From positions 1,364,001-1,428,000 of the forward strand of contig OZ017754.1 of NCBI GenBank assembly GCA_963969365.1: a DNA stretch of 64,000 nt. Direction: 5' to 3'. This DNA is from Asterochloris sp. CNOR1. Lineage: Eukaryota > Chlorophyta > Trebouxiophyceae > Trebouxiales > Trebouxiaceae. The position numbers and the translations under genes were made by a program. Numbering within the stretch: the first letter of the stretch is position 1; every line of letters starts with the position of its first letter. Shown in pieces: positions 1 to 62,232 of the stretch. The notes below the pieces were generated by a model that worked only from the letters and a program-made list of their open reading frames with translations, had not been told where the DNA came from and ran no database searches.

Positions 1-3000
1 TTGTAGGAGTCAGCAGCCGTCAGCCCAGGCGGTGGCGCTGTTTGCCGCCATTGCCACAAGTCTGACACTGCCGACGAGATGCTGGTCTGTGATGGCTGTG
101 ACTGGGGGCACCACCTGGGCTGTCTGGACATGAGCGAGGTCCCCGATGGCATCTGGTTCTGCGCAACTTGTAAGGCCGCAGGGGTGACCACCATGACAGA
201 GAAGGCTGCCGAGTTCCACAGCCAGTATGCTGGGGACGCTGTGGTCTCAGCTGCAAAGGTGAAGCAGGAGGCAGAGCTGCCGGTGCAGCAGGGCGACTCG
301 GTGAGTTCAAGCAGGCTTTTGTGCCATGCCTGGGGCGCTGCAGTGGAAGCCGCCAAAGTCATGTAGGAGGTATATCAGAAGGCTCAGGTGAGTCTGGGCA
401 GGCTGCAGGCCTTGGTGTGCATGCGTCACCATGCAAAGGTCGTGCTCTGGCAACCATTGAAGGTCAAGCAGGAGGACCTGTGAGCTGGGCGGGCTGCAGG
501 CTTGCATGTGCATGTGCAGTCTTGTTGGGCCCTTCTGCTGGAAAGGCTGTGCAGCCAGTTGCCGAGCTCACACATTGTCAGGTCTACAGTCTGTAGCAGC
601 CTCAACTACCCGACTGGCACCTCCATTGACTGGGCAGGACCTTGCGTCCCTCAGCTTACTTGTGGCCTCTATTGGCTCCTGTACATTTTGAAGCCTTTCC
701 CAGTGCACTTGACTGTCTACCCTGTTCTATTTGTCCATGACACAGCTCAAGTCCCCACAGCTGGCCTCAACTGCTGCAGGTGTTGTCTTCAGACGACTTT
801 GAGGCCCCTGCAGCGAGTGGAAAGGGTGAGTCAAGTCTGGGCACATGCCAGGCTGTCTCAGATACCCTGCCACCTCAACTTCTGATCGGCCTCTGTAGTC
901 ATCAGCCTGCCCAGACATCAGAACCCCATGCTGCTTGCCATGCGGCATCCAGATGGCTGCTGTGCATGCTATTGGCCGCAGCTCATGCTGCAAAGCAGCA
1001 GGGAGCTGCCTCACAGGCCTGTGAAATGCCCACCACACCCCCTGCCTTCATACCTGTGTGCACCTCTGACATCCCAGACTCATGCTTGCAGGCGGGGTGC
1101 CGAGTGTCCAGCTGTTGGCTTTGCGCAGGCGCTTGATGCAGCAGCAGGAGGAGCTTGCTAAGGTGGACAGCGAGCTCACAAGGATGCAGGGGCAGGTGAG
1201 CTTGTGACCTGCAGCAAGCTCTGAGGGCCATGCGCGTTGGTGGACCTGGACTGCTGATGCTCACGTCCTGTGTTGCTGCTTAAGTGTCGATGGCAGTCTG
1301 GATTGGGAGCCAAGAGGCAAAGGCAGCAGGACATCATGCAAGCAGCAGGTTTGTTTTCAGACGCTGGGGGACTGGCGCCTGGCTGCAACTGCATCTCAGC
1401 ACACTGGGCCATGTGCACTCAGGTGCTGTGTGTCCCTTGCTGCTGGCTGGTCCACATGCTAGGCTCCACTTGCCAGCTTGAGCGGTGTATGCGATTTGGG
1501 GCTTGGGGTCTGACTCTGGGCTGCAAGTGTCTCCTGCAGTGGCGGGGTCTGGGGCTGCCAGGGGCTGACGCCTGGCGGTACTCATGCTGAGGCACTGCGC
1601 TGTTGCATGCCGTGACCACACTCCTCCCATGTGCAACTTTGCACCTCGCTTTGAGATTGTCCCCACAAGCCAATGTGGTATTCTGTGCTGCAGCACCAGC
1701 GCCAACTGGCCAAGTCTCGGAGCGCCAGCCCTGTCGCGGGAAGGACTGCCAAGCGCATCAAGCGGGAGCCAAAGTACAAGGCAGAGGCTGTGTCTGAGCC
1801 CGAGCAGTCGGATGGGGACTCTGACTATGGCATGAGTGCTGAGGTGTGGCTGACCCTGTTCTCCGGGTGTGTCCGCCCCAGGGGGGGCATACCTTCATTT
1901 CACAGGGGCAACATGCACCACGTGGTCTGATGAGGTGTCCTTGCCTCCTGGTCTGTGTCTGCCCTGTCAAGGGCTTTGCTTGTGAGGAAAGAGACTGCCA
2001 CATGGCCTGGCAAGGTGTGTGGCCCCTGACAACAGGCAGTCAGGTGAATGGTGGCATCTGGTCCTGTCCCTCTGGTCCAGGAGGACGGGTGTCATCACAA
2101 AGCCTCATGACGCATGCGGCCCAACAGGAAACCTCTTGAGCAACATACTGTTCAACGGATGTTGCTAGGGCTTCTGCTCTAGCTCGCTTGACTGTAGGTC
2201 ACACCCAAAATTTGCAGCGTGCATGCCATGGATAGCCAGAAGGCAGTTGGCCAAGCAAGCCTGCACCACCTGAGCGCAGTGATGAGTGTAGCGCGCATGC
2301 CTGACCGCTGGCTGGCGGGCCCAACAACCATGCTGATGGGTGTTCTCTCCTGTGCAGGACTCCGGCAGGAAACTTGGCAGGCACAACAGCACCGAGGCCT
2401 CTGAGAGCAGCAGCATTGATGACGACTCCTCCACAGACACCACTCCAAACCCTTCAGGTGTGCTCCTGCTCTCTAGCTGGAAAAGTGCAAACATGCTGCT
2501 CTGCGCAGAGGCGGCACCCACAACCTGTGCTCACAGGAAGTGCAGCACCAATGGCTAGCACCGACCCTGCTCACATGCATGCCTGGGGCACCCTGCTCCG
2601 TGCTCCAGCACCCAATACTAGTGTGGCACTGCTGCTGGCAGGGCTACCTGTGCACAAAGCTATGGCTGCCAGGAGCTCGCCCTGCTGCCTATGTGCTGGC
2701 CAGCAGATCAAAGCTCTACACTCATGCCCTTCCTTCTCATGTTGACAGCCCAGCCTCATTAAGCGGCGCCACTGCTGCAAGGCAGCAGCCTGCATGTTCA
2801 TAGTTTGTGCAGTGCGCATCAGCGCATTCCTGATTTACCTGTGCCACCTGCCTAGCACCCCCCTGGCTCACCATGTGGTGGCCTGCTGCAGCAGCAGCAG
2901 GTGCCCACATCCAAATGCTCTGCCAGTCCTGCAAGCCTCTCAACCGCCTACCAGGTGGCTGCCTGCAGCAGCAGCTACTGCCCACATGCATGTGCTCTGC

Positions 3001-6000
3001 CTGCCATGCCAAGCCCTCAACTGCTAAGTATGTGGCTGACTGCAGCAGCAGCAGCACACCTACTCTTCCGTTCTCTGCCTGCCTTACCAAGCTCTTAGCT
3101 GCTCACCTATTGGCTGCTTGTCCTGCTGCAGGGCCAGCAGCCAGGGGCTGCAATTGGGGCGCCAGCGGTCGCGGCGCCCGCAATGGGCAGGGCAGTGCTG
3201 CACAGGGCCGGGGCCCCCGTGGCAACAGCCGTGCAGTGCTCACAGAGGACTTTGACGACGAGGAGATGGAGGAGCTGAGGAATGAAATTGAGGACGATGA
3301 GCATGCAGGAGGTGAGCACAGCTGCTTAACTCTTGGCGGGTGGGTCTGTCACCCTCAGGATTACATTGTGGAGCAGTGCTATAGCAGTGACTTGCTTCTC
3401 GCCTGCTGCATGGTGCAGGGCCTGAGTGCCTCTGCAACAGGGTGCACTGCAGGCCTGTGGCGCTGTTCTTGCCTTGCCTGGCTGGTGGACTTGGGACGGC
3501 ACAATGACTGGTAGACATAAAAGTATCAAGATGGGCACCTTGTAGAGTGTGCCCCTGCAGGCTGGGGTTCTCAGGGCCACATGCATTGCTGCACCTATGA
3601 GACAACGCTTCGTGCCAATTGTAGCAAGATCTGGTTGCCACAATTGTTCTTTTGCCGCCCTGCGCTGACAGCATCCAGCTTCAAGGTCCAGATGGTGACA
3701 GCCATGGCCGCTGACAATCCTGCGGCGCACAGAAACGCGCTGCATGTTGCTCATATTCCCCCTGCCGCCTTGAGTTGCAGGGCGGCCCGATGATAGGGTT
3801 GGACCCAAGCCCCAGCTGCAGCGCATCAAGAAGATGCTGCTGCGGCTGCTGAAGACCCTGGAGCTGCCCCCCAACCCGCTGGACGAGATGATCGACAAGA
3901 TGGGGGGAATTGACCATGTGGCGGAGCTGACGGGGCGCCAGGTGACGGGCTGTGTTTATGCAGGTGCATATGATTTCAAGCTGCAGACGTCAGGCAGACA
4001 GAGGCACAGCATGGCCGAGCGCCATGTGAGGGCTGCAATATGTCTGCAGAGCGCATGTGCATTGTGTCTGGTATGCGACAGTGCATCGGCGCTGAGTGGG
4101 CATGCTTGCTTGACGTACATCAGCAATCTGCAGCAATCAAGCAGTGCTTGGCTGTATGCAGGGTGGGCTGTGCAGGGACGGTGACAAGTTCAAGTACAGG
4201 GCCAGAAATCAGGAGGAGGCCCAGAAGGTAAATGTTTTGTGCCCAGATACACTGCAGTGAGTGTGGAGGCAGCAGAGCTGCTCATCTGCTTGAACAATCT
4301 GCTGAGCTTGCCAGGTGTCCTGCCCCACCCTGGCCTGCAGTGGCTGAGATGTTGCCTCTGCAGCTCAGTCACGCGTCAGCAGGGTGCGACTCGCCTGCTC
4401 GCTCCAAACAGGTGGAGCTCACTGGCCAGCAGGCAGCATTGCGTGTGTCTGCATGCCTCGCCATGCGGGATAGTCAGCGTCCCTGTGTGCAGTACATCCA
4501 CAAGAGCCCTGCCCTGCTGCCGCAGATGGTGAACATGAAAGAGAAGCAGTCCTTTATGGACGGTCACAAGCTGATCGCCATCATCAGCGAGGCAGCCTCT
4601 GTCGGCATTAGCCTGCAGGCTGACAAGCGTGTGCCAAACCAGCGGCGCCGTGTGCACCTGACGCTGGAGCTGCCCTGGAGCGCTGACAGGGCCATCCAGC
4701 AGTTTGGACGCTCCCACCGGTGAGGGTTTGCAGTGACGTTGACGTGCATCCTATGAGCTCTAAACAGCCTTTGCCCAGATGAGCAGAGTGCTGCTTGGCT
4801 GAACCCTGTTGCAAGCAGCTCACGCTGTTTTGTGTGGGAGACTATCTGCTTGGTGTGCGCAGACCTGACAAGAAGCTCTGGCTGTGAGCAGAGCTGGCTG
4901 CCAGGAACGAGTGATCCGTCATCTGAGCGGAGCATCAATTCGAGGAGCTTAGGGACTTGAGTCTTGCACCGACCTGAGCTGAGCGCCCGTCCCTCGCTCC
5001 GCAGGTCCAACCAGGCATCTGCTCCAATCTACCGCATCCTTGTGTCTGAGTGCAGCGGCGAGTACAGGTTTGCCAGCTCGGCTGCCAAGCGCCTGCAGAG
5101 TCTGGGAGCACTGCTGAAGGGCGACCGCAGGTTGGAGGCACAGTCCTGCTGAGCCCATCCATGTTGTGCATTCTTCAAGCTCAATTGGGTGTCATGCGAG
5201 ACTGTGGGCCCTTATGCTTGTCCTATCTGTGGACAGGCTGTTCAGGTCTTCTCCACATGCTATGTTGTGCCTGGCTTGCTGGTGAGCTGTCTGCAGCAAT
5301 GGTCATCATCAAGATGTCCTCCACGCTGTGCCTGGGGCCCTCGCTCCCAGCCTGCTGAAGGCCTGTCTGTCACTGCCTGTCTGCTGAGACACCCAGCTGA
5401 GCTGTGCTGCCATGCCTGCGTGCAGGGCCCTGGGGGCAGGGACTGATTTACAGGCCTTTGATGTGGACAACCAGTGGGGCAAGAAGGCGCTGAAGAAGTG
5501 AGCCTGCCCCTGACTGTCAGCACAGTACCTCTCAGACATCAGCTGCTGCAGGCAGCCTGTGTGCCCGCTGTCAGCTCTCGCGCTTGCCCAGGCGGTAATG
5601 CTGAGCTGTGCTTGAGCCTGGACTTACTGACACAGCGCACCTGCCGGGTGTGCTTCGGCATGGACGTCACAGCAGCATCCACCCACTGTGCTTGGGCCTC
5701 TGTGCTCCTCATGCATGCCATCAACAAGATCCCAAGTGCGCTGCTGTGCTTGGGCCTGTATGCACATCTTGCTAGCCCTTGACAACTATGGATGCCACGG
5801 GGCTAAGCTGTGCCTGAGGCTGCATGACCTGCGCTGCAGGATGTACCAGGACATCATGGGCATTACTGACCCTGCACCTGATGTGGTGGTGAGTCCCACC
5901 GGTCATCTTGTGTGCATTGACCAAGTCATTGCAGCTCTGAAGCTGTTCACTATGAGACTGAGCTGCTAGGCCATAGTGGAGCTGTGCGTCCAGCATATCT

Positions 6001-9000
6001 GCTCTGCTGCAGCCGCTGGCACGTTCATGCCCCGGCTTGCAATAGGTCAAGCCCCCAGCCGCAATGTACCACTCACCAGTTTGTACATGGGCGCTTTGTC
6101 TAGGCCAAGGCGCCAAAGCTGCCAGCTGAGCTGCAGCGCCACCCAGGCTTGCAGTGCTCAAGGCAAAGAAGAACGAGGCGACTGCTCTGTGCACTACAGG
6201 TGCCCAAGCTTCCGTCGGAGCTGGAGGCACGGCTGCAGGATGATGGGTCTCTGCCTCTGTGGAGGGCACCCAAGCCCAGTGACAAGCTCTTCCAGTGCTT
6301 CAGGCAGATGCTGGCCGGAGTGGGTGCCACTGAGTTCCAGAAGCGGTTTGGAAGCAATGAGTGAGCTCTCGCTGTGTTGACTATGCTTGATGTATGTCAC
6401 TAGCGCTCCTGGTCAGAAGGGGTGGCAATCAACGGGCCGCTTGCTGATGTGCTTACTGTATGGCGTCAGCACTCCTGCTGCGCTCAGTCGTGCTGATGAT
6501 CAGCAAATGAGGTCTCTGCAGGGTGCTGACTCTGGGTGCCTGCTCACAGGAACAGCATCGGAGCTTGACAGTAATTGCAGTTGCTTGCTGTGCTGAGCGC
6601 CAGTGGCCTGCCTGCTGTCCGCGCAGCAGCAGAGCTTTGCACAGAGGGCATCAGCTTGCTGTGCTGTGTGCACCTTGGCGGGTCCAGCATGCCAAAGGCC
6701 CATGCCGCAGCCTCTGCTGTGCCGTTGTGCAGGCATCCACCTCTGCTACCTTCTGCTGAAAACACTGTTTGTATTTTCTGCAGGGTGCAGTACCAAATGC
6801 CCAAGGAGCAGAATGTCGTGGTGCCCAAGTTCCTCAACAGGCTGCTTGCTCTCAAGCTGCTGGAGCAGAAGGTCATCCATGCAAAAGCAATGCTAGCTGT
6901 TCACAGCAGGCAGCCCTGCTGCTCCGCCTGCTCCGTAGCTGCCTTCCCCCTGCTTTCTTCACACTGTTCACCAGCAGTGGCCTGTTTGCTGTCTTGTTTG
7001 GGCTGCTGGCCTTGATGCTGCCTACCTTCATGCTTCCTCTCTTTCTGCTGCTCGCTGCTGCCTCTATCACTGGCAGGTGCTGAGAGGTTCAGACACCCTT
7101 AGCACTCTGTCAGTGGGAGTGGGTCAGGCTGGAATGCTATGCTGGCAGCTGCCGTCTTCATACCTGCACCGTCGCTGGTGGAGCTGCTGGTTTGAGCATG
7201 AGAGTGGTGTGCGTGGGGCCGAGATGGGGCCAGGCATGCTAGCAGCGACATGAGCACTGCTGCCATGCACCTGCAGGTGCTATTTGACTTCTTCAGCAGC
7301 ACACTGGAATCTGAGATCACCCTGGCCAAGTCAATGGGCAACTATGAGACTGGTGAGGGCTGCCTGGCAGGCTAGTTGCACATCAGTCTTCTTGTCTGTC
7401 AGGAGCCCTGCTATGGCACATTCTGAGTTACGGCCTCTGCCTTGGGGAGCTTCATGGTGACAGGCTCATGTCGCGTCATGCATCAGAGCTGTAGGACAGC
7501 ATCTGATGGAGCAGTCAGCCTTTTTCACATTGCACGATGACGCTGTGCTCGTCACACAAGTGGGAGGAGTGGCGAGCATGCCACATGCTACTGCAGGGAT
7601 CGTGAGGCTGAATGCGAGGAGTGCCCAACTGAAGAGGCGAGATGTTCTGCATGTAGACCCACAGACAGGTGAGGGCATGCATCCCTGGTGCAGCACCTGT
7701 TCTCAGGCTCTCTGACTGTGGTGTGGTCCATTGCTGACCACAGTGTGACACTTGCTGTACCACCAATTGGGTATAACGGCAGGCTGAGAATTCTCACTCC
7801 GGCCCTGGTCGTTGCCATGTTCCTGCAGGAGCCAAGCCCAAGCTCGTGCTTGAAGCTAACACCTCAGCCTGCCACATGAACACACGCACACATGTTCGCC
7901 GGTGTTCCTGCAGGCGCCAAGACCTTTGCCTCAAAGGTTGAGCTGGACCACGGCATGTCCTGGGAGGAGGCCCTGGCAGCCAGGGATGAGCTTGTGGCAG
8001 AGGCCAAGGCAACTGGCAAGAAGCTGCACCCCCGCACAGGCTTCTACCGCTCGCAAAACACCTGGGAACCACAGCAGGGCAAAGACAGTGAGTTGGTGCT
8101 GCTGGCATACATGCCCAATGCTAAAGCACACCACACTCAACAGAGTTGGCTCATGAGCTGATGCAGCGATCCTGTGCACGAGGAGGCTGAAGCCACCGAA
8201 GTTATGTTCTGCTTTACAGCACACAAGCCAGCTGCTCATGCTGATGATGCTCTGCATATGCATTGCTCCATGCCAGGGGGCCATTGGCCTTCCTGGCTGC
8301 TCAGGCATGCAGAGTGCTGGTTGCTGCCCGAATCATGAACAGATTCATGGAGCTGGCCCGGCTGCATGCACAGGGCCACTGCTCTCTTTGCTTGATTGTT
8401 CCTTTGCCTGAGACAGGTCCTCGAGCATGCAGGGGAGCTGGCCTCAGGAAGCTGGCCTGGCTGCCTGTGCAGGGAGGCTATTGGCCTTCTTGTCTGCCTG
8501 TTCAGACTGGGTCCACGACATGTGCAGGGAGGCCGCTGGTGTTCCTGGCTTCAGAGGTGCCACGGCGGTCCGAACGGGATCTTGCCAAATTTCGGAGACG
8601 GCGCCCCAACAATCTGTCGGGCGATGTCCTGTCTCTGGACGCTCTCATGCAGGTGTGCGGCAGCTGCTCCTGCATAGTGCAAACGATCTCAGTTTTGCAG
8701 AGGGTTGCTACAGCGTGCAGCATAAAAACCTCTCTTGTCGACAGTGCTTCTTGGGCAGCGCTGGTGTGCACTGCACAGACAGCACGTCTCAAGTGCACAA
8801 TGTGCCTGTGTCTCTTGGGGCCTGTACTGACAGCAATCTCTGCCTGCAGTCTAACGATGCGATTGGGCTCAAGGTGAGTGCCGCGTTGGAGCTGTTTCCA
8901 CATCAACCTTTTGTGCCATTTGGAGGCTGTGTATGGTGGTACTGCAATGTGCCGGCCTTGCTCCTGGGTTCTGGTGTTTTGCAAGTGCTTGCTGTGCAAT

Positions 9001-11355: not shown

Positions 11356-11660
11356 GATGTGCCCAGTGCAGGCACTGCATACACGTACCAACATACCAGT
11401 GCCAGTCATTGCCAGTTCACTTACAACAGTCAATATGTCGACATTGCAGAGTCTACACTTGATGGTCGCATGCCCCACCAATGCATGCACCTGGTCCGTC
11501 AGTCAGCTGCAATACTTACTTGAAGCAGTCCTCCACACACCACGTCCTCGGCCACTCATTGAATCCCTATGAAGCAGTCATCTATGTCACTCCCATGTGT
11601 TGTTTTATTATTGTAGTATCGCTGTTCTAAGAGCTAGAAACTCAATCCTCTTTCTACAAC

Positions 11661-13401: not shown

Positions 13402-13414
13402 ATGTCAGCTGAGA

Positions 13415-15028: not shown

Positions 15029-15036
15029 CTGCAGGA

Positions 15037-38100: not shown

Positions 38101-39540
38101 CATCGATGCCTCAGCTGCCATGCAGACCTACAACTTCCTGCAGAACAAAAAGATTTTCAGGTGGGCTTCCATAACGGCAGACTGTGTTGGCTGCTCATGA
38201 GCAAGGCAACCTTGAAGCAATGTGAGGTGTGGCCTGCACCGCCTCAAACATTCCAGTGTGTGGGCAGGCTGGCGCGCCAGCTGTGAGCCCAGCCGACCCC
38301 AGCCAATACCAAAGCAGGTACGTGCACCTCTGCTCCGCATCTGACCCCAGCATGCGGTCAGTCCAGTCAGCCCAGGCAGCATACACCAGCTCAGGCCCAC
38401 ACATGTCTGGCCACCTTTGCATGATGAGAAATGAGACCTGAGCTTCACCTGCAGGGTGGACGGTCTCGTCTCCAACAGCTCTGGCAGCTTCAGCCTGGAC
38501 TGGTCCCAGGGCGCCCTGGCCAAGCCTGACCAGGCCCTGCTGGACATGGTGCGCGCTGTGCAGCCCACAGGCACCCTGCCGGTGAGAGCCACACGGCCCT
38601 TCTTGTGCATCCCAGGCTGCATGAAGGTGTGTGTCCAGGCTAAGCTCCTGGGCAGGGTGCACGCTGTGCAGCCCAACTGCACAGCGACAACAGCATCAAC
38701 ACAAGCCCACCTTGCTCTTGCCAGGCTGCATGAAGATGTGTGTCCAGGTTCGGCTCCAGGACATGGTGCGCGCTGCGCAGCCCCACGGCATCATGCCAAT
38801 GGGGCCTAAGTGCCTGGGAAGGGGATGTGCTTGCTGCAGCATACATGGATGCACGCCTGGGCTTGTCCCTCTACCTGCCACACAGCAGACTGTGTAGCAA
38901 ACCAAAGCTTGCCGCAGAACATCCTAAATTCGGTGTTCAGGGCCCTCACAGTACAGGTGGAGGCATGTTGATGGAGACACACTTCCTCTAGTGCTTGATT
39001 CTCTCAAGCAGCGTCCCCTCACACAAATCTGCCGCTGGTACAAGCTCCATCAAGTCACCCGTTATGTCAGGTACTGTATTCTCTGCATGCAGGGCCACAA
39101 TGCAACCTGGCTGCGCAACATTGCCCAAAACGAGAGTGTCACCATCAGCACGCCTTTCCAGTGCTCAACAGCCCAAACTGTGCACCCAGGGCAGATGGCT
39201 ACCGCCACCACAGCTAGCTACCAGGCCCCTGGAAACTCCACTGCCGTCCAGTTCGTCTGTTCTGTCCCAACTCCAGCCCCCATCTGCAGCAACCTGCAGG
39301 TCTGCCCAGCAGGCGGCCTGCAGACCCTGCGGAGCAGCCAGGTGAGCCTAGGCCTCACAGTTCCACACAGACAGGCCTGTCGGTTCCATCTTTGCACTGT
39401 GTGCCGTCCATGTGTCGTCAGCTCTGGGCAGGAGCCTTGACAATACTTGTGTGCCAATACTGCAGGCTGGCTGCCAATACTCTGCCTGTTCCACAGTAGT
39501 CAATAACACAGCAACAAGCCCTTTGGTGCCCTCCTCATGA
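35194..39540 (+). CDS. Secreted protein of the bacterial ABC substrate-binding (TroA/BtuF-like) fold
   Basis: Eleven phase-consistent exons: 35194-35367, 35463-35510, 35622-35666, 35852-35959, 36118-36322, 36614-36807, 37270-37473, 38024-38160, 38455-38581, 39093-39341, 39466-39540 (521 residues). The N-terminus MGLAWVFVGALLARLAAAIQ is a signal peptide. Features typical of iron-siderophore/cobalamin-type class III binding proteins: FAGGWTVQYMEQFK, VLYQCGTPAPSKAQF, FLDVLNVTDRV, the hinge-helix segment AAEWIKFLALFFNKDAAAEQ, and DQALLDMVRAVQPTGTLP near the end. There are many Asn-X-Ser/Thr sites (NNSE, NQTS, NGSP, NVTD, NATT, NSSG), fitting secretion and glycosylation. The Cys-rich tail is absent from bacterial proteins. 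Ligand unknown; metal or vitamin capture at the cell surface is inference. No transporter genes are adjacent. Confidence 0.88.
38546..38797 (+). repeat. Two decayed copies of an exon end in the binding-protein gene
   Basis: The exon end GACATGGTGCGCGCTGTGCA, GCCCACAGGCACC (about 38543-38578) recurs at about 38652 (GGCAGGGTGCACGCTGTGCA, GCCC) and 38760 (GACATGGTGCGCGCTGCGCA, GCCCCACGGCATC). Intron sequence GGCTGCATGAAGGTGTGTGT, CCAGG also occurs twice (about 38615 and 38724). The unit is about 110 nt. Confidence 0.8.
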
Positions 39541-40907: not shown

Positions 40908-40938
<31 letters not shown>

Positions 40939-46100: not shown

Positions 46101-49100
46101 GCAGGGTGGCTTGAACACACCAAGATCCTCCCGTGGTGCAAAAGTGCCCAAGCAGGGCCTCTCTGGGTGCTGCAGTACATAGTAACAATACCAGGCAATG
46201 CACAATGCCAAAGAAGCACACCCTGGGGCTGCTGCAGAAGTCAGGAAGGGAGGCCTGGCGTGGTGGGTCTGCCCATCTGCCCACATGTTGATCAAGCAGC
46301 TGTGCCTGCTGCAGGACTCTTGACATGCAAGCCCTGCATGATGCACATCAGATGCCAAAAGCACACACCCTGTGGCTGCTGCAGCATTCGGAGGGGCAGG
46401 CCTGGCATGTTGCATTCGCCCTGCTCCCTGCATGGTGAACAATCAACAACACTGGTCCCCTGTGACTGCTGCAGGACTCTGAGATGCAGGCCCTACATGA
46501 TGCCCACATCAAGGAGATGACCAAGTTGAGCTATGAGCTGGAGCGGGCCAAGACAGCCACTGAGCTGGCGCAGATGAGATACAGGCAGGGCTGGGTGCAC
46601 TGCCGTCGCTCTGTCACAAGCACCTGTGCACAGCACATGCAGAGTGTGCCACGGCAGTCAAGTCCGCCAACCCGCTGTGGGTGCTTTGGCACTTCAGTCA
46701 CCAGCCCTTTCGTCCCGCTGCAGCTCGTCCTTGTGCATCCTGCTTTCCTTTGCTGCCAAGCTGCAGAGCAGGAGGTGGCAACTGCCCACTGTCTTCGCTG
46801 CAGAATGAAGCAGCTTGGCATGGAGCCACCCCCGTTGCCGCCAGATGAGGAAATGGTGCCCAAGCCAGCGTCACCAGCGGGAGAGTTACAGCCTCCCCCG
46901 CCTCGAAAGCAGCGTTGGTGAGAAGGGTGCCTTCATGCCATGATGCATGAAGCTTGCAGACTCAAAGGCAATCACTGATATGCCCAGCGCACAATGCGGT
47001 TAGCTGGGTGAGTCTACCTCTCTGAGTGCCTCCAGGCAAGAATCTGTTTACTGATGTGCCCACGTCATTGTCAACCTCAGCACCACCTGCTTGAGCCAGA
47101 CCTCCACCTTCCTGGTCGCGTAAGGCAGCGCCTCTGCAGTGGGCTTGCCTACCTCAGCAGAAATGTGCAGGGGGCCTTCCATTGTGCTGGCGGCTGAAAG
47201 GCACCCCTGAGTCCTGTGCAGAGCCTCTGACCACCTTCCGTGCAGGTAGCTAGAGCTGGGGACAGCTGAAAGTTGTCACAATGTGTGGACACGCAGACCT
47301 GCAAAGTGCATGACTGTGCCTATTTTTGTGCAGGGAACTGAAGGATGAGCAGGAGAAGAAAGGTCATAAAAAGCCTGAGAGATACCGGGCACGCAAGCAG
47401 AGTGAGGATGAGAGTGAGAGCAGCGACTCTGAAGAGGAGTCTGCAGCAGCAGCCTACAAGCGACGCCGGCAGGCAAGTGATTGACATCATGGGGACAGGT
47501 AGCCAGGTGGGACAGTGAAGCAGGGCCCTGATGACCTTGCCTCTGGTGCATCTGCTGCTTGCAGGCAAAGAAGACTGCACATGCTGGGTTGTCAAGCATG
47601 ATCAAAGCATTTCGCGCAAACTTTGCACAATCACGTAGGGAATGCCTGCCAGCCCCAATGCGGTGCTTGAGCAGAGCTGCAGCTGTGCCTGGTAAATGAC
47701 TCTCATTCTCCAGGGACATTGCAGAAGCAGAAAGAGCGGGAACGGCAAGAGGAGGTTGAGAGTGAGGGGGAGGAGTCTGAGGGGGAGACTGAGGCAGAGA
47801 CTGTCATCACAGGTGTGTTCTGGCCGTTCTGGAGGTCCTTCAGCAGGACTCTTGCCTCCCTTGCCCACTGATCGTCAGGTACCTGGGGCCTGAAAGGGGT
47901 GCGGACAGAGCTTGCCCTAATGATGATTGTGTTTCCCGGGACGGGTGGCCTGCTTGCTGCCTTGTGTGACCCAATCACAGCGCAAGGCTGTGCTCTCTGC
48001 ACACCGGCAAGGTGTGTTGCTGTAGCTGCACAGGTTGAGGTATTCCCAGCACCGTTGCAATGTAAAGCTGACTTGGGACAACTTCCACCCCTGCCGCCAT
48101 GCCTTCTCATGCGTGAGTCCTGAACTCAATTGCTGCTTCCTGTGCAGATGCTGACTCTGCAGCCTTGAACGAGACATACCGGGTGAAGGATCTGTGGCTG
48201 GAGGTGGAGGTGATGAGCCCTGTCAGCATGGCAGGCAGCTACAGTGCGGCTGTGGTGCTGTACGATGGCAGCGAGCCAGTGCAGGCAGCGGGGACCACGG
48301 ACGGGGTCAGGAAACAGACCGCATTCAGGGTGGGTGTTTCAGTCATGTGTCTGCAGGCCAGCTGGAAGCTGTGAGGCTGCTGTGAGCAGGCAAGCATCAC
48401 CTAGGAGGCAGGCAGCAGGCTCTTGCAAGAATTGCCTAAATGGCTGCCTCGGCAGCAACGCATGAGATGCAACAGCGCCTTGCCGAAGGCCAGTCTGCGC
48501 ACTTCAAACTGCGCACCGTAAGCAAAGCACCCTGCTGGATACGTGCATGCACCTCCCACCCACCATCCCTGGTGCAGGAGGTTGGGCAGGATGAGCTGGA
48601 GGGCACTGTGCTCTGGAAGGAGCAGCTGTGCCTGGAGAGGGTGCGCCTGCGCTCCACCAGCCAGGTGGTGGTGGAGGTGCACCACCAGAAGGAGGGGTCC
48701 TTTGAGCCTGAGATGATCGCATGGGCCCATGCGCCTATCATGCAGGTGGGTTTTTGCACCTGGGCCTCTACTACCCGGTGCTCAACTACAAGCAGGGTTC
48801 CCAGCCCCAGTAGACTGCCTGGTCTCACGCGCCCATCATATGGGTAGGCTGGGCTCATGTACTGCGTACGTGCTGCGTTATTCATCGTGACAGGGCAACT
48901 GGATGGCAGCAGGGCAGGGGGTGCATCACCGGAGAAAAGGCGTCTACAAGCCCAAGATGATGGCTGGGAGTGACGCACCCACTCAGCAGGTGGGCCTTGG
49001 GCAACTGCAGTATGGTGCAGGTGGCTCTTGCACAGCATTGACAGCTGGAGCTGTTCTTGGCTGCACAAGGCTCCCTCACCGAAGCCGCTGCCAACACTCA

Positions 49101-52100: not shown

Positions 52101-55100
52101 ATCTGAGTTATTCTGCCATGTGCTGATATTCTCTGCACTGCACAGGGCATGAGGCAGGGCAGATGCTTGGCATCGTGTAACCCCTACTGAGCAGGACTGA
52201 TGTGCCGCAAGGTGCTCTTGCAGGGCCTACGACTCCAGCAGGGACTTCCCCACAGCCACAGAGCGCCGGGTGTATGGCGTGTTGATGATGCGGGAGCCAG
52301 TCAGGATCCGAGACGTTCTCAAGGCGCTGCTGAGCCCTGCAGACACCTCCAGCGTGCTGCAGCAGCAGCAGCAGCTGCCGTCCAATGCAGGCCCTGCCCA
52401 GGCCAGGTGGAGCTCAGGGCTTTCAGTGCCCTCTGGCTGCTGTGTCAGATTGCACTGGGTGCTGCCTCTCCTCCCTTCATTGGGCCTCAGTCCTGCTCAA
52501 TTGTCTGGGGTGCCTCTGTATAGCCCCATCATGCTGAGTAAGATTGGCACTGTCAGGGCAATCGCATGCAGGAGTGCTGGGGCTGGGTGCTGCATGCAGG
52601 GATGCTTGGGCTGGGTGCTGCCTGAGCTGCTCTTTGAGCTCACTGTGATTCCTCAGCACTGCCCTGCCTGCCAGTGCTTGAAGCTGCTGTCAGAGCCCTT
52701 CGCAAGAACTTCAAGTGTCATGCTCACCCATTGCGCTCAATACCTGGCTGCCCCATCTGCAGTGGAACACAGCAAAGCAAGCGGTCCAGCATCTTTGGAG
52801 GAGCGCGCTGGGGCACCAACAAGGCAGCAGTCCCTCTGAGGGCTGCACCCTCCCTGCTGCCAGCGCAAGGGGAGGCTGCAGCCGAGACTGCCATTGAGCC
52901 AGAGCTGCAACCAGAGCCTGAGGCGCCTCGCCCTGACGATGGCCCCCTGCTGCCAGACGAGGACTTGGTGGATATCATGCAGGCAGGTGCCTTTGTGCTT
53001 TGCCCACACATCTGAGATGCGGGCAGCCGCAGAGGCCTGATTGGGTTCCATGTAGGTCTTCAAGCAGACACAGGGGCTGTAATCACTGCGCTAGAGGGCA
53101 ATGGCTTGGCAGACATGCCGGCGGCCGTGCAGGATACCTAGCTGCTCTTGTCAATGAGGGCCCTCACCTGCCAGACCAGGAGTTCATAGGTTCATGCAGG
53201 TGCGGTTTGGGAGCGGGTGTCAGCTGTAACAATCACAATGCGGGCGTCATGCATAGAGAGCCTGCACCTGCTGCTGGCGTCTGATTGGCCCACAGCATTC
53301 ACTTAAGCCTTGCTCTGTGAAAGGCCAGTGTCTGCACCGTCAGATGCACATACCCTCTGCAGTGCCAGCAGCTACATTGCTGGGTCCAGTTGCCCTGCCC
53401 CGCAGGCTTGCTTTCAGCCACTAAAGCTGTGAACTGACACTAAGTGGCTAGACACCCTTCTTCCCTGTCCTGCAGGTCTGTGCATGGCTAGCCTTTGCAT
53501 GTGTCTGCAGATGGCCTGCACCCTGGCCTGCAGGCCGTAAACCCTATACCCTATACCCTGCAGGCCCGCTTGCAGCGGCCAGAGCTGTGGAATGACATCA
53601 TGCTGGACTACTGCCGCAGCTGGCCCTACAGCCTACAGCTGGGGTTCCACGTCTCCCTGGACAGCTGCGCGCGCCTGCCGCGCAACCTTCCCGTGGCAGC
53701 TGTCTTCTCTCTGTCGCCTCCAGGTCAGGTGCTCCTGGTGGCCTTTGCAAGTCTGGTGCTTCACAGATGCAGGTAGCTCACACATACATGACCATTCCCG
53801 CCAGGTCAGACACTTTCAATGCTCCTCTTTGTGGGTTCGCTGCATCTTACTGTCACTCGAAGAGACAAACCTGCCCGTTTGATGGAAGCACAGTGCTATG
53901 CAATTTGTGATTGCTCCCGTGGCAAGCTGAGGTATAGAGGCGCACGCAATATTGCCCGCTGCCTCATGCCTCACACCTCTGCTGGATTTGAGCTCTGTCT
54001 GAGTCTGCATGCAACGTCGCAAGGTCTCACCTGCCTGTTTGCTGCAATGCCTCTCCATGCAATCCAGGTGCAGCCTTAGGCCTGCTGCTGCAGCTGCCAT
54101 CCCACAAAAAAGAGCAGCCTGCTATGCAGACCTGCCTCCATGACTACATCCTCATCCACTCGCCAAACCCCTGACCCACAGTTCTCAGCCGCCTGCCCTG
54201 CTGCCTGTGCTGTCACCCCTCCTGCCTGCAGGCACGCCCTCCCAGCAACATACTGTCAGCCTGTGCATCAAGGTATTCAGCTTCTTCTGCATTTGCTCAC
54301 AGCTTCTCTTGCCTGTGTTCACAGCATCTCCATCCGCCACCTGCAGGTGCATTCTACCAGGACCTGCCTCGTGTGGACGCTGTGGGTGTGACACTGCAGT
54401 ATGACATGGATGCGCCCCTGAACGCTCCTACCTGGCTGGATGGGTACCAGCAATTCAAGGCAAGCTGGCTGTGTGGCAGCAGCAAAGCTGACCTGCTGTT
54501 GGCACCTCAGCGCTTCTCTGGCTCCAGACTTTAGGACCCTAAATCAGACTGAATGGCTACCAGAGGTTCCAGACATGGCTGGCTGGGTATCCGAATCCCG
54601 CCCAGCTGGCTGCAAGGGCAACCAAGATGGCCTGCATAACAGCGCCTGCGCCATCTGTGGCTCCCAGAAATGATATGGCTGCATGGTCATGGTACGAAGC
54701 GCTCGCGCCTTCAGGATGCTGGCCTGCTAGCCCACAACCGCTTCTCATACTTCATTTGCTGGGGCTCTTTGGCTTGCAAGCTGCCTGCCTCTGAGCACCA
54801 GCGCTGAACAGATGCGCTTGCAGTCCTCCAGTCTCATTGGATGCAGCTTCCCAGCAACAGACCCCCTCAAACGCCCTTGCTATGCACTGCGCTGCAGAAG
54901 GTGCGATACGACCCAGCGCTGGCGCTGATTGTGGACATTCGCACAGTGCTGCCTGGCAGTGGCGCAACAGCCCCTGTGGGGTGGGCTGCCCTCCCCATCT
55001 TTGAGTCTGGGCCAGGCAGATATGTGGCCAGCGGGTACTACCAGCTGCCCCTCTTTCAGGTCAGCAGCTGCTTGGTGACAGTGCAACACTGCTGCCTATG

Positions 55101-56915
55101 CGATCCAGATCTGCCTGCTGTACAGGCTATGATGAGGTCCTCATTGCGCCATTGTGAGCTGCACCTCCAGAGATGTCTGCACTGTGCCAGGCCCTAAGCG
55201 CTCAACTCCACAGACTCTTTGTAATCTGCACGGCATGCCTTTGTGGTTGCTGGCAGCCAGTGTGGCTGCAGTACACTATTTTAGCCAATGCCGCCACACA
55301 GTGCTGGTGTAAACCCCTGCTTCAAAGGTATGTCCAAAGGGACCCACAGTATCCCAACCATGCCGCAGGGCCTGCCCTCAAGAGAGATGCTGGATGGAAT
55401 GGCCTCTGCCAAGGATGTGCACACGGCGCTGCGCGATGCACTTAAGGTAAGCGTCCGCTGGCAGCAGATGGCCCGCAGCAGGAAAGGGTCTGTATCCTGC
55501 CCTGCATCTGAGCAGACCAGCAGCATCCTGGGAAGTCCATGGGCTGGTGTTGCAGGCAAGGGGCACCTGGAGGGAGTGCTAGGCCCAACAACAGTCTTGT
55601 GGGTAGCAAGCCTTCTTGCAGGAGTCCTGAATGCGGTGCAGACCCTCACGGCAGGTTGCATACACCACAGCTTCACAAGTCTCAAACCGTCTTTCCCCCA
55701 CCCCTCCCCATTTTGCAGCCTCCTTTGGAGCTTGGCAGGTCCAGCAAGGCCCAGTTCGCTTGTGGCATGCTGCTGCCACTGTTCTCTTGAGGCCCTGACT
55801 GTAGCTCACAGCTGGCATGTCGCTTTACAGTGACTGCCACATGTGCAGACTGGCTGCATGAAGCACATCAGCTACTGTCTCAGATATGTCATTCAAAGTG
55901 AGTAGCATGCTGTTGCCCTCACAAAAGGACTTTGCCTGTGGAGCAGACTGGGCGCCTGAAGTACATCAGCAGCTATGCCAGTGTGCTGGTCAGGCTGTGC
56001 GACGAGCAGCGTATGGGGCACCTGCAGCATGCAGCCTGGTCTGGCAGTGCCAAGCCCTACCTGAGGCTGCCGCCTTACGTGAGGGAGACCCCGCGTGTGG
56101 AGGCTGAGCTCAAGAAGACTAAGGAGGCTAGCAGGACATATGACAATGCCAGGTGGCTTTTGTTAGCTTTATTCTTTCAGATGTGGAAGGCTCAATCCAC
56201 TTTGTCTGTTGCTGAAAGCACAGTGTCTTGGCAAACACACCAACATGGCCGCTGACAGCAAGCTGGCTACCGTGTTGTCTGCGTGCGGCCGCTTGCCAGG
56301 TCAAAGATATGTCGGCAGGCCTGTGACTACCCTGGCAGCGTGTCAGGCTCTGTGCTGGAGCCCAGGGAGGAGCTTGACAGTGTGCCCGTTCACATACTGG
56401 ACCAAATAGTGTCGGCCGCCGTGTCCTGAATGACGCCACTGATTGAAGCTGACCTGTGCAGGTCTGAAGAGTCTCAGTCAGCATATGGCCCCTTCAAACT
56501 GCGACTTCCCTGTAAAGGCAATCTTGCAGGGCGCCCTGCAAGATTACCTTTTCACAGCAGGTACCCCAAATGCAGGGATATGTCAGCTGACATGTGGCCT
56601 CAAGACCTCAACGATGCCACCATCCATGCATTGTAGGGACCACCCTGTATGAATGTCACCTGCGGAGCCATAGCATGTGGCTGTAGTGCGACTTCAGGGA
56701 AGGACGCAGCAGGATTGCTTCTCACCTGCAGGGCCAAGGACATGTCAGCTGACATGTGGCTGCAAGACCTGAACGACGCCATCGTCCGGGCGGTGGGACT
56801 GGACCAGCTGGGCAAGGAGCCGGACCTCAATGCCCAGGACCTGACAGAAGGCGAGAAGGAGATGCTGCAGCTCATGCATGATGCGAGCCAGCCAGAAGCT
56901 GCAGCTGCCCCTTGA
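43159..56915 (+). CDS. Very large coiled-coil protein with repeated C2-like segments (CCDC17-like)
   Basis: About 30 exons, roughly 1,470 residues. Part 1 (43159-46917, exons 43159-43275, 43593-43697, 43987-44179, 44611-44714, 44943-45075, 45127-45389, 45748-45861, 46475-about 46600, 46767-46917): Ala/Gln/Pro-rich with coiled coils (DEFINRLQREQAEQQARLEA). Part 2 (47334-47812): acidic/basic (SEDESESSDSEEES). Part 3 (48148-56152): repeated C2-like blocks with PGEGFAVLVDAARFLP, GYAAINLFVDP ... GGWQIPLHTGPP ... ASLLIRIMKLD, then YDPALALIVDIRTVLP ... GWAALPIFESGPGRY ... YYQLPLFQ ... ASVLVRLCDEQR. This pattern resembles animal CCDC17, often linked to cilia. The last exon, 56732-56915, ends DASQPEAAAAP. 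GC donors are inferred at 47473, 52983 and 54460. Two junctions (near 48450 and 55060-55446) are unresolved. Function unknown. Confidence 0.82.
46309..46520 (+). repeat. Decayed copy of the exon starting at 46475
   Basis: The true start GCAG/GACTCTGAGATGCAGGCC then CTACATGATGCCCACATC is echoed exactly 160 nt upstream by GCAGGACTCTTGACATGCAA then GCCCTGCATGATGCACATC (from 46311). The copy has an in-frame TGA, so it cannot be an alternative exon in that frame. Confidence 0.85.
56298..56790 (+). repeat. Three copies of the terminal exon start
   Basis: The terminal exon start GGCCAAGGACATGTCAGCTG, ACATGTGGCTGCAAGACCTG (56732 on) is echoed at 56574 (GGGATATGTCAGCTGACATG, TGGCCTCAAGACCTC) 159 nt upstream. 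A weaker copy lies at 56300 (GTCAAAGATATGTCGGCAGG, CCTGTGAC). Each copy follows an AG acceptor, and the two upstream copies run into stops, at 56632 and 56428. Confidence 0.8.
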
Positions 56916-57953: not shown

Positions 57954-60143
57954 ATGCCAGCTGGGCATGGGCTGCGCGCTCGCACCCGCGACTCTTTCTC
58001 CCGTGGGTTCAGGCAGAAGGGTTACATTCCTCTGTCCACCTACCTGACCACCTACAAGCTGGGTGACTATGTGGACATCAAGGTCAACTCCGCAGTGCAG
58101 AAGGTGAGCCCTCAGCGTTAATGTCAGGCAGGCCAAATTGTGGAGCACACAGAGTGGGGCGTCCATGTGTGAAACCCAGGCGCAGCATGGCTCTGCTGCC
58201 TCAAGGCAGTGGGCGCTTTGGGGCGCTTTGGAGGGGCCAGCCCTCCTGTGCAGCTTGAAAACTAAAGGCAAGGTATGCTGCACCTAACTCTGCTCCAGGA
58301 GGCGTGCTGCAGCCTGCTGTTTGCACCAGAAGGGGCACAGGCTGTGGACCGTGCTCTGAATAGCACCTGGCCATGAGCGCTGCAAAGTGCAGTACACTGG
58401 CATGCGTTGCAACGCTCATCTGCCAGCGACTCACTCATGGCTGCCTGCCCTGCTGCAGGGCATGCCCCACAAGGTTTACCACGGCCGCACTGGTCGCGTG
58501 TGGAATGTGACAAAGCGGGCTATTGGCGTGGAGGTCAACAAGCAGGTGCACCGCTCTCACAGCTCCTGAAACCTGCGGGGGGGCTTCCTGGCTTGTCCAA
58601 ATTTTGTCCACAGGCCAGCACCGAGTGGAGGAGAGTTAACCCTCATCAAACAGTGACTGCGTTGAGGGCGCTGTTAGGCCATTCTCCTGCGGGCATTGAT
58701 TGCCAGCATCTGCCAGGCAACAGCTCACATGGCTTACTGGAGGCCCATGAGCGGGCTGGCAGCAGGGTTGGATCCTGCAGCAGCACAGGCTGAGCAAAGC
58801 CTGGCTGCAGCCTGTATGCGTATGCTGTCTGTGCCAGCTGCCAGGTGGGCCCACCCTGTACGACCGCCAGCTGCTCTAGGACCAGGGGCGCTGAAGCAGG
58901 CAGCAGTGCCGAGGCGCACACTGCTTTTGCCCATCAGCACGGGCTGGGCAGTCTCCAGGGCTGGCACTTGAGGTCTCAGCTGGGACACAGGAAGCACTCC
59001 AGGGCCGGCTGCACTCAGCCACATGGGAACACCAGGGCCAGCTGCCAAGGCTTTAGCCATGTTGTGGGCTTGGGCTGGGCAGCAGTGCTGAGCCTCATGA
59101 GTGCCTGCAGGTTGGTCACAGGATCATCCCCAAGCGCATTCATGTCCGCGTGGAGCATGTGCGCCCCTCCCGCTGCCGAGAGGAGTTCCTTAAGCGCCAG
59201 AAGTCCAACGATGAGTACAAGCAGCAGGCCAAGGCTGCAGGAGGTGGGCCAGGGACTGGCAGTGCCAGGCACTGCAGTGTACGAGGACTGTTTTCGGCCA
59301 AGGGTCTTGAAGCTGTACTCTGTCATGAGGAGCACCAAATGCTGAAAAATGCAACTGGGTGCCGGGCTGTCGCAGCTGCTCAATATCTCTCTCCCTTCCG
59401 GCATGCAACCTGTATCTGCATAGAGCATAAGGGCACTGCCTGCAGTTGCCCTGAGTGCGCCTGGCACTGTTCTGACTGCTGCTGTGCATCCCGGATTCCA
59501 GGCCCACATCCTGCCCGCCTGTCCCAAGGTAGAGGGGTCCAGAGGTGTCACGCTCACCTCTGTCTGTCCAAGCAGCAGAGGTCCATTGGTTGCAGCACGC
59601 ACCTTGACAGTGTGGTGCCCTGCTGGTGCAGAGAAGCTTGTGACTCAGGTCTGCTCACACCATTATAGAGGAGCCTGCAAGCAGATCTGCTCACACAGGT
59701 GTGCTGCTGCTGCAGAGAAGCCTGTGACTCGGAAGCGTGAGGTGGCACAGCCGCGCCCAGGGTTCACACTGGAGAACATCAAGATGCAGACCATCACAGC
59801 CATCCCCTATGATATCATCAAGGAGGTGGGCTTGGCTGCTAAATTCCAGTTCCAAAGGTGTTACAGCAGTGTTCGAGTTGAGTCGGCACATATACAGGAT
59901 CTGGCACAGCCAGTTGCCGCACGTGTTAGTGGACGCAGCACGAACTGCAGCAGACCCTCAGCTCATCTGATTTCATTTGGGATGTGACCTTGAGTTTGCT
60001 TGTGATAGTGTATAGATGCTGTCTTGAGGCTGGTCACTGGTTCCTTGTGATTGGTATCTACAAGGGCTCAGCAAGACTGCGCCGTGGCCCTTGCTCACCT
60101 TGTCATGATTGCTTGTTCCTTCCTGCAGGGTCTCCAGAACTAG
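57954..60143 (+). CDS. RPL21: 60S ribosomal protein eL21
   Basis: Five exons (57954-58103, 58459-58545, 59111-59243, 59716-59825, 60129-60143) give 164 residues, the normal eL21 length. The sequence is highly conserved: [79 protein letters not shown] and [20 protein letters not shown]. The last exon adds only GLQN and a stop; animal and plant homologues diverge at this end. A structural component of the large cytosolic ribosomal subunit. All junctions are canonical and in phase. Confidence 0.97.
59624..59733 (+). repeat. Decayed copy of eL21 exon 4 start
   Basis: The true junction GCAG/AGAAGCCTGTGACTCGG (from about 59712) is echoed by GCAGAGAAGCTTGTGACTCAGG at 59628, 84 nt upstream. TCTGCTCACAC also occurs twice between them. 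Confidence 0.8.
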
Positions 60144-60343
60144 ATGGTTGGACGTGTTACACAGCCTCGCTGCGTTTGCTTTTGTTTGGATGTGAAGTGG
60201 CATGTGAAAGTAAACAACCTCAGCAAGGCTCAGGTCAACAACGATCGGCGTGCACAGCCTCAGTCCGAGCGATCTTCCAGTTGGGTTATGCTCAACCAGC
60301 AAACAGTACACTTGATTGTGCTCCTCGAGCTGATCCAGGCCCA

Positions 60344-62232
60344 ATGACAATGCTCTACTGCGGGACCACCCAGGGCTGGCACCAGATCTCGGTTGCTGAT
60401 GCACACACTGTGAATAGAGGCCTGCCAGACCAGGTGGTCACCCAGATCGCTGTGCACCAGCAGAAGGCCATTGCTGCCTGCCCACACCTCACTCGTGCAC
60501 ACTTCATGCTAGATTGGGCCACTGAGGAGAGTGCTCAGCAGCACCAGCAGCCAGGTGTCTGGCTGGAGGACCTTGGGTTGGATCAACCCAAGCCAAGACG
60601 CATTTGGGAGGGGAATGCCAAGTCCTGCGCTTTCGACAAGGCTGGCAGCCTCCTGGCAGGCGTCGAGCCTGCTGATGTCCTGTCTAGCACAGATGACGGG
60701 GCCACCTGGCAAGACAGCAACTCCTTTAGACAATTTGACAGCAGAAGCTCCTGGTGAGGCCAAAGCTTGCTCCACTGCACATGGATGTGAAGAACCAGCT
60801 GGGTTCTCCAGCAGTCGGTGCAACCTTGACAGCATGCTAGAGGACACAGCCATGCAGCATTTGGCACTGCCATCAGTTGCTGACAAGCCCCGCCAGGTTC
60901 TAGCGGAGATGGCTGAGCTACCTGGGGGAGGGTGCTGCTGCACTGAGAGCTCCTGTTGCTGCAGCCACAGGGTATCAACCAGGTTGCACGCTAACGTACC
61001 TGCAGCACATGCCTCGTCGTGAGTGTGCGGTCTGCTGCTGACCGCCCCTCGTGCTGCCCCCACAGGCGGTGAGCGGGCTGCACAGCTTGCCAGCGACAGC
61101 TGCATGTCCTGAGCAGCTGGGCTGACTGCCTGCAGGAGCTACCCAGCAGTGCCGCGAGAGCCCCACGTCATGAGCTTCGACTTTGCACAGGACATGCACG
61201 ACCCAGATGGCGCCCCCCTCATGATGGTGGGCATTGAGGTTGGCGGCTTGCTGGCTTACGTCCCAACGGCTGGCGCCTGGCAGGAGCGCAATGTGCTGCA
61301 CACGGATGACGGCCAGCAGCAGCGCTTGAAGGACGTGCACCAAGTGCGGCCGGACCCCTTTGACCACAGCAGGTGGGTGCTGCCCCTGTGGTGGGTTGCT
61401 GCATTCATCCTGAGCAGGCCAGCAGCAGCACCTGAGGGATGCGCATCAGGTGCGGCCAGAACCCAGTGAGACTGTTGCAGGTGTGTGCAGGTGGTACTGC
61501 ACAGCAGGAGAGACGGCTGAGCACCAGGGTGGCTTCTTTGTGACTGAAGATCAGGGGCAGTCCTGGCGTCGCCTTCTGCGAGGCAGCGACGGCTCTCCAG
61601 CTGCAGGAAAGCAGGGCATCCCCTACATCCTGGGCCTGGCGCTCAACCCCTGGCGGCAAGGGGAGCTTCTGATCACGGCTGCCAACAATGCCCCTGGTGG
61701 GGTGCTGCTCTGGCCTGGGAACATGCATGCTTGTTGTGTAGGTTGTGCAATCACACTCAGGTGCAAGACTGCTTAAGACGAGTGCTGTGTGTCTTGATTG
61801 CAGCAGAGATGTGGGTATAGCTGAGCCACACAAACCTTGGGGGCAGCAAGCAGCCTTCTGACAGAGCAAAATTGAGCCATGCTTGTGGGGTGCTCTTCAT
61901 CCGAGCTGCACCTGCATAGCTGGTGCTGCTCGCACTGATTCAGTTTCATCTGTCCTACAGGCATTGGTGGTCATGTGCTGCACAGCCTTGACGGCGGCAA
62001 GACAATAGAGTCAGTTACACAGCATGTGACTGAAAGCGGAGGCTGCAGCATTGGAGGCCACCTGCCAGTACCTTACTTTATTCAGGAGGGAGCTGTGCTT
62101 GGGGTAGACACGGGGGACATCCTGATATCAGCAGATGCCGTCTCCAAGCCCTGGAGAAAGCTCACAAGGCTCAGTGGTGCCATCATCTCGATTGCTGAAG
62201 AAGATCGTGGCAACTCTGCAGTGATGCATTGA
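60344..62232 (+). CDS. Asp-box (BNR) beta-propeller protein
   Basis: Four exons (60344-60753, 61136-61372, 61491-61696, 61961-62232) give 374 residues. Asp-box motifs (S/T-x-D-x-G-x-T/S-W) recur: SSTDDGATW, VTEDQGQSW, HSLDGGKTI, with a weaker ISADAVSKPW at the end. This indicates a six- or seven-bladed propeller like exo-sialidase-type or YCF48/WD-like photosynthesis-assembly propellers, but catalytic sialidase residues were not identified. Other conserved-looking stretches are MLYCGTTQGWHQI, VMSFDFAQDM and GIPYILGLALNPW. No signal peptide was seen at ATG 60344, so a cytosolic protein is likely unless there is an upstream exon. Precise function unknown. Confidence 0.87.
61311..61472 (+). repeat. 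Decayed copy of an exon end, Asp-box gene
   Basis: GGCCAGCAGCAGCGCTTGAA, GGACGTGCACCAAGTGCGGC, CGGACCCCTTTGACCAC (61311-61367) recurs at 61417-61472 as GGCCAGCAGCAGCACCTGAG, GGATGCGCATCAGGTGCGGC, CAGAACCCAGTGAGAC. The copy is 106 nt downstream, in the next intron. Confidence 0.88.

Follow-up and report, generated by a model that had tools for sequence, protein, structure and literature searches.

Decayed copies of exon ends in the introns of an Asterochloris alga point to intron growth by local tandem duplication

Introduction

Why should the end of an exon, splice site included, reappear in degenerate form within the intron beside it? The question is raised by a stretch of 64,000 nucleotides (nt) from the green alga Asterochloris sp. 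CNOR1 (GenBank assembly GCA_963969365.1, contig OZ017754.1, positions 1,364,001–1,428,000), hereafter called the window, whose genes contain a number of such copies, here termed exon echoes. A sequence-only reading of the window had proposed that these echoes reflect tandem duplication across splice sites, as a repeated route of intron growth or intron gain. We here report that genes of this alga probably undergo frequent local tandem duplication that hits exon edges more or less at random, that the copies subsequently decay, and that the lasting effect is a longer intron and not a new one.

The genome comprises 56.4 Mb in 21 contigs with a GC content of 58%. Our main sample consisted of the window and twenty 10-kb stretches (L003–L022), 264 kb in total, and three extra stretches (L026–L028, 30 kb) served as a holdout. 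Gene models were predicted ab initio, without RNA, by a self-trained hidden Markov model gene finder trained on the 264 kb, which yielded 59 genes and 567 introns with a median intron of 227 nt and a median exon of 111 nt. The score thresholds and the simulation settings (divergence range, exon rate of 0.35 and indel rate) were our own choice.

Results

Exon echoes are local, direct and more frequent than in controls

Ungapped direct repeats with offsets of 20–400 nt and a score of at least 18 were counted across the 264 kb with low-complexity masking switched on, which masked 0.1% of the window. The count was 167 local matches, whereas three ranges of distant offsets gave 10, 0 and 2; 137 of the 167 local repeats had offsets of 40–299 nt. 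In the window alone there were 52 local matches, several of which may share one locus, versus 0, 0 and 0 distant ones; the matches thus did not vanish under masking, whereas their disappearance had been named by the sequence-only reading as fatal to its claim. Exon-edge probes, which omit the 4 nt beside the junction, told the same story at a score of at least 14. The exon's own adjacent intron was matched in 49 of 857 trials, versus 16 of 4260 when the probes were set against introns from other genes, so that matches to unrelated exons were far from equally frequent. Both sides of the intron contributed, as had been claimed: 26/427 acceptors and 23/430 donors matched their own intron, compared with 5/2120 acceptors and 11/2140 donors in other genes' introns and with 1/897 acceptors and 4/897 donors in far introns of the same gene. 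In the holdout, own introns were matched in 9/114 trials and controls in 1/570; by stretch, the local versus distant counts were 9 versus 1, 1 and 0 in L026 and 18 versus 0, 1 and 0 in L028.

Could the similarity come from chance or from low-complexity sequence, namely CTG/CAG runs and shared TGCAG acceptors? The predicted acceptors in the window and in L003–L022 are indeed close to TGCAG|G, and a model given only AG recovered T, G and C at 67, 69 and 76% in 338 acceptors. TGCAG occurs at 9.2 per kb on the plus strand of introns, 8.6 times the base-composition expectation, and the splice motif explains much of the raw excess of matches at exon edges. Against this, distant offsets, introns of other genes and far introns of the same gene match rarely; the local excess (167 versus 10, 0 and 2), the own-intron excess and the holdout make chance or low complexity almost certainly the wrong explanation, and we rejected it.

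The distribution is uneven, a point against frequent local duplication: holdout stretch L027 showed no excess (2 matches versus 2, 1 and 0), and three of the twenty stretches (L003, L004 and L020) held no pair at all. Overall, these data confirmed that the echoes are real, common and not peculiar to the window.

Inverted repeats were hardly enriched at a score of at least 14 (68 versus 49 and 46 in controls), a small excess at best, and inverted duplication was rejected. At acceptors, reverse-complement matching between exon starts and the adjoining intron was slightly raised (6/427, score of at least 14); donors gave 2/430.

A census of echoes at exon edges (score of at least 16, offset of at least 30 nt, at least 12 exonic bases per pair and no more than 20% coding sequence in the copy) found 69 echoes at 58 predicted edges in the sample; the window accounts for 25 of these pairs, at 21 edges. 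All copies lie nearby and in direct orientation, often several to a locus. As adjacent intragenic direct repeats above chance level, neither inverted nor dispersed, they show the features of internal tandem duplication.

Echo loci in the window

All offsets given in the sequence-only reading were recovered: 53 (position 29031), 55 (8464/8519), 77 (2877), 84 (59614), 90 (46368; also 25387), 106 (61311), 108/109 (38527, 38560), 159/160 (46300–46321; 37436), 168 and 157 (26287, 26455) and 172/173 nt (24836). Further offsets were 162 (56526), 158 (53396), 164 (24500), 85 (7818), 98 (55835) and 147 nt (46157). The main loci are as follows.

2877–3141, plus strand: 77-nt tandem array of about 3.4 units found by Tandem Repeats Finder (TRF); 72% in gapped self-alignment, mostly intronic and CTG/CAG-rich.
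7818–7924, plus strand: acceptor echo in the SBNO helicase gene, offset 85; copy 7818–7839, edge 7913/7914, 22 nt at 91%.
8464–8552, plus strand: acceptor echo, offset 55; copy 8464–8497 retains TGCAGGGAGG, edge 8527/8528, 34 nt at 74%.
24500–24801, plus strand: acceptor echo, offset 164; TGCAG retained in the copy, edge 24759/24760, 61% over 139 nt.
24836–25111, plus strand: donor echo, offset 173; exon end 24836–24931, copy 25009–25111 lacking GT, 77% over 104 nt.
26214–26723, plus strand: two donor echoes of a kinase exon, offsets 168 and 325; exon end after VAIK at 26319, both copies lacking GT.
29031–29134, plus strand: 53-nt tandem duplication found by TRF, 88%; starts at the third intron base after donor 29028.
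37436–37669, plus strand: donor echo, offset 160; donor 37473, copy lacking GT, 75% over 74 nt.
38527–38797, plus strand: exon end and adjoining intron present in three tandem copies, giving two donor-side echoes (offsets 108 and 217); 72%, copies lacking GT.
46157–46511, plus strand: nested tandem copies, offsets 147, 90 and about 160, upstream of acceptor 46474/46475.
53396–53597, plus strand: acceptor echo, offset 158; edge 53563/53564, 75% over 44 nt.
55835–55981, plus strand: acceptor echo, offset 98; predicted edge 55946/55947, 71% over 49 nt.
56526–56795, plus strand: acceptor echo, offset 162; edge 56731/56732, 85% over a 53-nt core and 70% over 108 nt.
59614–59732, plus strand: acceptor echo in the eL21 gene (assigned by Pfam and PDB), offset 84; TGCAG retained, in frame and stop-free.
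61311–61490, plus strand: donor echo, offset 106; copy 61417–61490 stops exactly at the acceptor, 74% over 72 nt.

Two of the repeats first read as exon echoes are real repeats of another placement. The 77-nt array lies in an intron and reaches an acceptor (3131/3132) with its final unit only. The 53-nt repeat is wholly intronic and hence no exon echo; a 23-letter pattern from its unit occurs genome-wide only at its two window sites. A few of the 25 window pairs match exon sequence distant from the named edge (by up to 237 nt). By our judgement, not by computation, the predicted exons 26840–26938, 46238–46262, 46385–46404 and 59446–59544 are spurious, and the edges beside them are therefore unsafe.

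Pfam searches on six of the eight predicted window genes (the first in part) identified an SBNO helicase, a mitochondrial carrier, a protein kinase, a cold-shock protein and eL21, with one gene unmatched. The gene hosting the 7818 echo carries Helicase_C_4 and SBNO, and the eL21 protein has its closest PDB matches in what we take to be wheat and Arabidopsis ribosome entries. An Rfam scan of the window returned nothing at the gathering threshold. The cold-shock/glycine-rich gene has, within a predicted intron, a run of 29 C at 40910–40938.

Duplications fall on exon edges at close to the rate of random placement

Is the exon edge itself the duplicated unit, as the term echo suggests? For the placement tests, pairs with offsets below 30 nt were removed and neighbours were merged. 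Edge pairs pass the score threshold more easily because TGCAG is common to acceptors and GT motifs to donors. With the splice motifs neutralised, at a score of 18, there were 20 edge/intron pairs versus 17.6 ± 3.8 under random placement. The remaining classes, observed versus random, were 48 versus 34.6 for intron/intron, 23 versus 19.7 for exon/intron, 9 versus 12.0 for exon/exon, 8 versus 3.9 for edge/edge, 0 versus 8.5 for edge/exon and 1 versus 13.8 for intergenic pairs. We also simulated random duplication followed by decay, with slowly evolving exons (6000 random events, of which 767 within exons and 632 intergenic ones were excluded). Among 127 pairs, the simulation expected 71.6 in which one of the two members lay in an exon or at an edge, where 64 were seen, and 53.2 intron/intron pairs, where 49 were seen. 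Edges are often crossed because a random duplication of about 100 nt meets short exons and introns. With the neutralised count near random and a simulation that predicts at least as many edge echoes, the notion of exon edges as a preferred target was rejected.

Several figures pull the other way. Without neutralisation, 35 edge/intron pairs were seen versus 20.3 by random placement, and with neutralisation at a score of 16 there were 28 versus 22.2 ± 4.4 (p 0.11); because neutralising also costs edge pairs score, the true edge excess lies between the raw and the neutralised tests. The class split of the simulation is off as well: it expected 60.3 edge/intron, 11.3 exon/intron, 2.1 edge/edge and 0 edge/exon pairs, and 35, 29, 9 and 5 were seen, a mismatch that could come from gene-model errors or from loss of a duplicated splice site. 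Repeat coverage at acceptors was 0.098 over the 20 exonic nt nearest the junction, fell to 0.037–0.052 at 40–100 nt and was again 0.098 at 160 nt.

Duplications probably lengthen existing introns

We then asked of each intron whether its length bears the mark of the duplication. Duplications were held by 51 of 466 introns (about 11%), with a median length of 456 nt versus 217 nt for the others. The share rose with length, from 3/113 introns at 200–300 nt and 10/67 at 300–400 nt to 29/73 at 400–600 nt; above 600 nt it was only 4/19, which runs counter to growth. Subtracting the offset from the host intron length gave a mean of 306 nt versus 316 nt expected under growth (Kolmogorov–Smirnov p 0.25). 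A model without growth, in which repeats merely lie in introns long enough to hold them, was rejected (p 0.004).

Tandem duplication could instead create introns, a duplicated exon segment supplying both splice sites as in the Rogers AGGT model. Gain by this route predicts an offset equal to the intron length. Among 453 introns there was no excess of such repeats: at shift k=0, 5/453 introns reached a score of at least 8, versus 1–10 at 28 other shifts. One intron each scored at least 14 at shifts −12 and −9. In the window, the intron at 61373–61490 is 118 nt long, 12 nt more than the offset of its echo, whose copy ends at the acceptor; it is a single candidate for an intron made by duplication. 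A second single candidate is L013 7327–7701, where the intron closes with a repeat of the end of the preceding exon, in register with the intron length. With these two candidates on one side, and on the other the lack of excess at k=0 and a kinase intron common to paralogs without an echo (see below), we consider intron gain a quite improbable source of the echoes and rejected in-register gain as a general route. Of the original proposal, local tandem duplication and intron growth therefore stand, on the direct local repeats, the intron lengths and the kinase paralogs, whereas intron gain as a general route does not.

In L018, two copies at a distance of 387 nt (donors 6587 and 6974) align over 134 nt with the exon part at 90%, both with a predicted donor and exon; this pair is a recent exon duplication.

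Kinase paralogs share the intron, and few of them carry an echo

The kinase exon with two donor echoes offers a natural experiment. A genome search gave 16 further matches; 13 of them and the window copy were analysed, and three of the 17 were omitted as they end before the query end. By gene model the intron starts at the same codon, after VAIK, in 12 of the 14 paralogs, one with a GC donor. Echoes with a score of at least 16 were found in four of the 14 (L029, L030, L034 and L035), at offsets of 168/325, 219/331, 154 and 112 nt, and cross-paralog controls reached 16 in 3 of 182 comparisons. Two more paralogs scored 13 and 14; the one with 14 lacks a donor at this place. The kinase intron looks older than the echoes because the paralogs have the intron in common and few have an echo.

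The echoes themselves look independent of one another, judging by the sequences: a copy's own exon was the closest match for four of the five copies compared (the L035 copy is outside the identity table). Model lengths of introns with an echo are 520, 747, 540 and 448 nt, of which the 520-nt window intron after 26319 probably spans 26320–27142 and thus 823 nt. Those without an echo measure 182, 1125, 403, 273, 325, 226, 49 and 325 nt, the 49-nt intron being doubtful as it lies beside a 6-nt exon. Two observations fit less well, namely that the L029 copy at +325 is in effect tied (0.58 to another paralog's exon, 0.56 to its own) and that the echo-free intron of L032 reaches 1125 nt.

Echoes at the same homologous edge in four of 12 intron-bearing paralogs exceed the roughly 5% of edges elsewhere, one of the four being the starting case.

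Most copies are unlikely to serve as alternative exon ends

Another reading is that selection maintains the copies as alternative or mutually exclusive exon ends. The extension lengths of the 69 echoes fall 27/22/20 over the three residues modulo 3. Nine of the 69 extend the exon in frame and without a stop, among them the eL21 acceptor at 59715, which also has a full TGCAG; for the remaining 60, use of the copy would shift the frame or add a stop (one in-frame stop for the 56526 echo). Where the match reaches the edge, the full motif was retained in 9/23 acceptor and 7/21 donor copies, whereas, by our own uncomputed estimate, simple decay would leave it in about one quarter to one third. Mismatches showed little bias by codon position (0.179/0.194/0.223, chi-square P 0.086), and the offsets of edge/intron pairs were spread 11/10/14 modulo 3.

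Some figures speak against purely neutral decay. Intron copies hold 4 stops in 689 codons versus 10.7 under a neutral model (P 0.014), the synonymous fraction is 0.368 versus 0.269 under that model (P 0.002), and among exon/intron pairs whole-codon offsets seem to be favoured (14/8/7 modulo 3). Change on the exon side accounts for the synonymous excess and only in part for the stop deficit. Weighing the stop deficit and the nine usable extensions against the 60 unusable ones and the motif counts, we regard selection for alternative ends as very unlikely and rejected it as the general reason. As a rule the two copies do not both have splice sites and an open frame; 59715 is among the exceptions, and the echo at 59614–59732 is, from its sequence, the best candidate for alternative splicing in the window.

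Duplications are scarce between genes

Across the window, L003–L022 and L026–L028, only one pair with an offset of at least 30 nt lay wholly within the 40 intergenic segments, versus 13.9 ± 5.2 in length-matched genic stretches (P 0.003). A GC-matched control gave 12.7 ± 4.7, and none of 300 draws was as low as 1. Likewise, TRF arrays with a period of at least 30 numbered 0 intergenic, 9 intronic and 1 coding, and those with a period of 10–29 showed no genic/intergenic bias. A uniform duplication process does not predict this scarcity.

One reading of the scarcity, compatible with the growth of introns by random local duplication, is that transcription or splicing restricts duplication to gene bodies, with no genome-wide background process. 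It would account for both the pair counts and the TRF arrays. However, the intergenic sample amounts to just 28.4 kb with ab initio annotation, the deficit is milder at a score of 16 (8 versus 19.9), and base composition may play a part, as CTGCAG occurs at 4.5 per kb in introns and 2.3 per kb between genes. We hold such confinement to be possible, if on balance unlikely. The fuller proposal, in which transcribed gene bodies alone undergo duplication, repeatedly at the same homologous edges, so that a process linked to transcription or splicing is the main driver of intron growth and about 5% of edges record it, is in our view doubtful.

Discussion

The echoes are best explained by frequent local tandem duplication with offsets mostly of about 40–300 nt. 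When such a duplication spans a splice junction, one exon end would stay in use and the other would be stranded in the intron, where it would presumably no longer be spliced in and would decay neutrally. The molecular cause may be replication slippage or microhomology-mediated repair.

Tandem duplication within genes is not in itself new. In 2009, Gao and Lynch reportedly described it as internal gene duplication, and Messer and Arndt are said to have described short insertions that arise as tandem duplications. The alga's duplications are likewise intragenic, yet they are short and decayed and mostly lengthen existing introns, without a general link to new ones.

Tandem duplication within genes is well known, and so is its occasional role in intron gain (PMC3443670; PMC4974935); an 83-bp tandem duplication within an intron of the potato RdRp gene is described as leaving the gene structure unchanged (PMC4974935). 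The mutation in the introns made by duplication, including potato RdRp (PMC3443670; PMC4974935), is of the same kind as in the alga. The alga differs in that its offsets do not match intron length and that, where paralogs allow the comparison, as among the kinases, the intron appears older than the copies. Introners, reported in diverse eukaryotes, are also repeated intron sequence (PMC9860276). Unlike them, the alga's copies match their own neighbouring exon and rarely other genes (16/4260); a similar element in many genes was not found. Short insertions by tandem duplication share with the alga local copying as the source of inserted sequence, whereas the alga's units are mostly longer and were seen almost only in genes (PMC2374710).

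Among titles and abstract openings of the open-licence literature, we recognised no description, for a green alga, of decayed exon-edge copies or of tandem duplication as a route of intron growth. The echoes look like a known kind of mutation with its growth side clearly shown, and not like a new way of making introns.

Change in intron length is usually inferred from length statistics. In this alga individual growth events remain legible, since one of the two exon ends is still used and the other degenerates. With duplications in about 11% of predicted introns, extrapolation suggests thousands of events genome-wide. If the near absence of duplications between genes is confirmed, a link to transcription becomes testable; if it is not, the echoes would display an ordinary mutation process seen unusually clearly.

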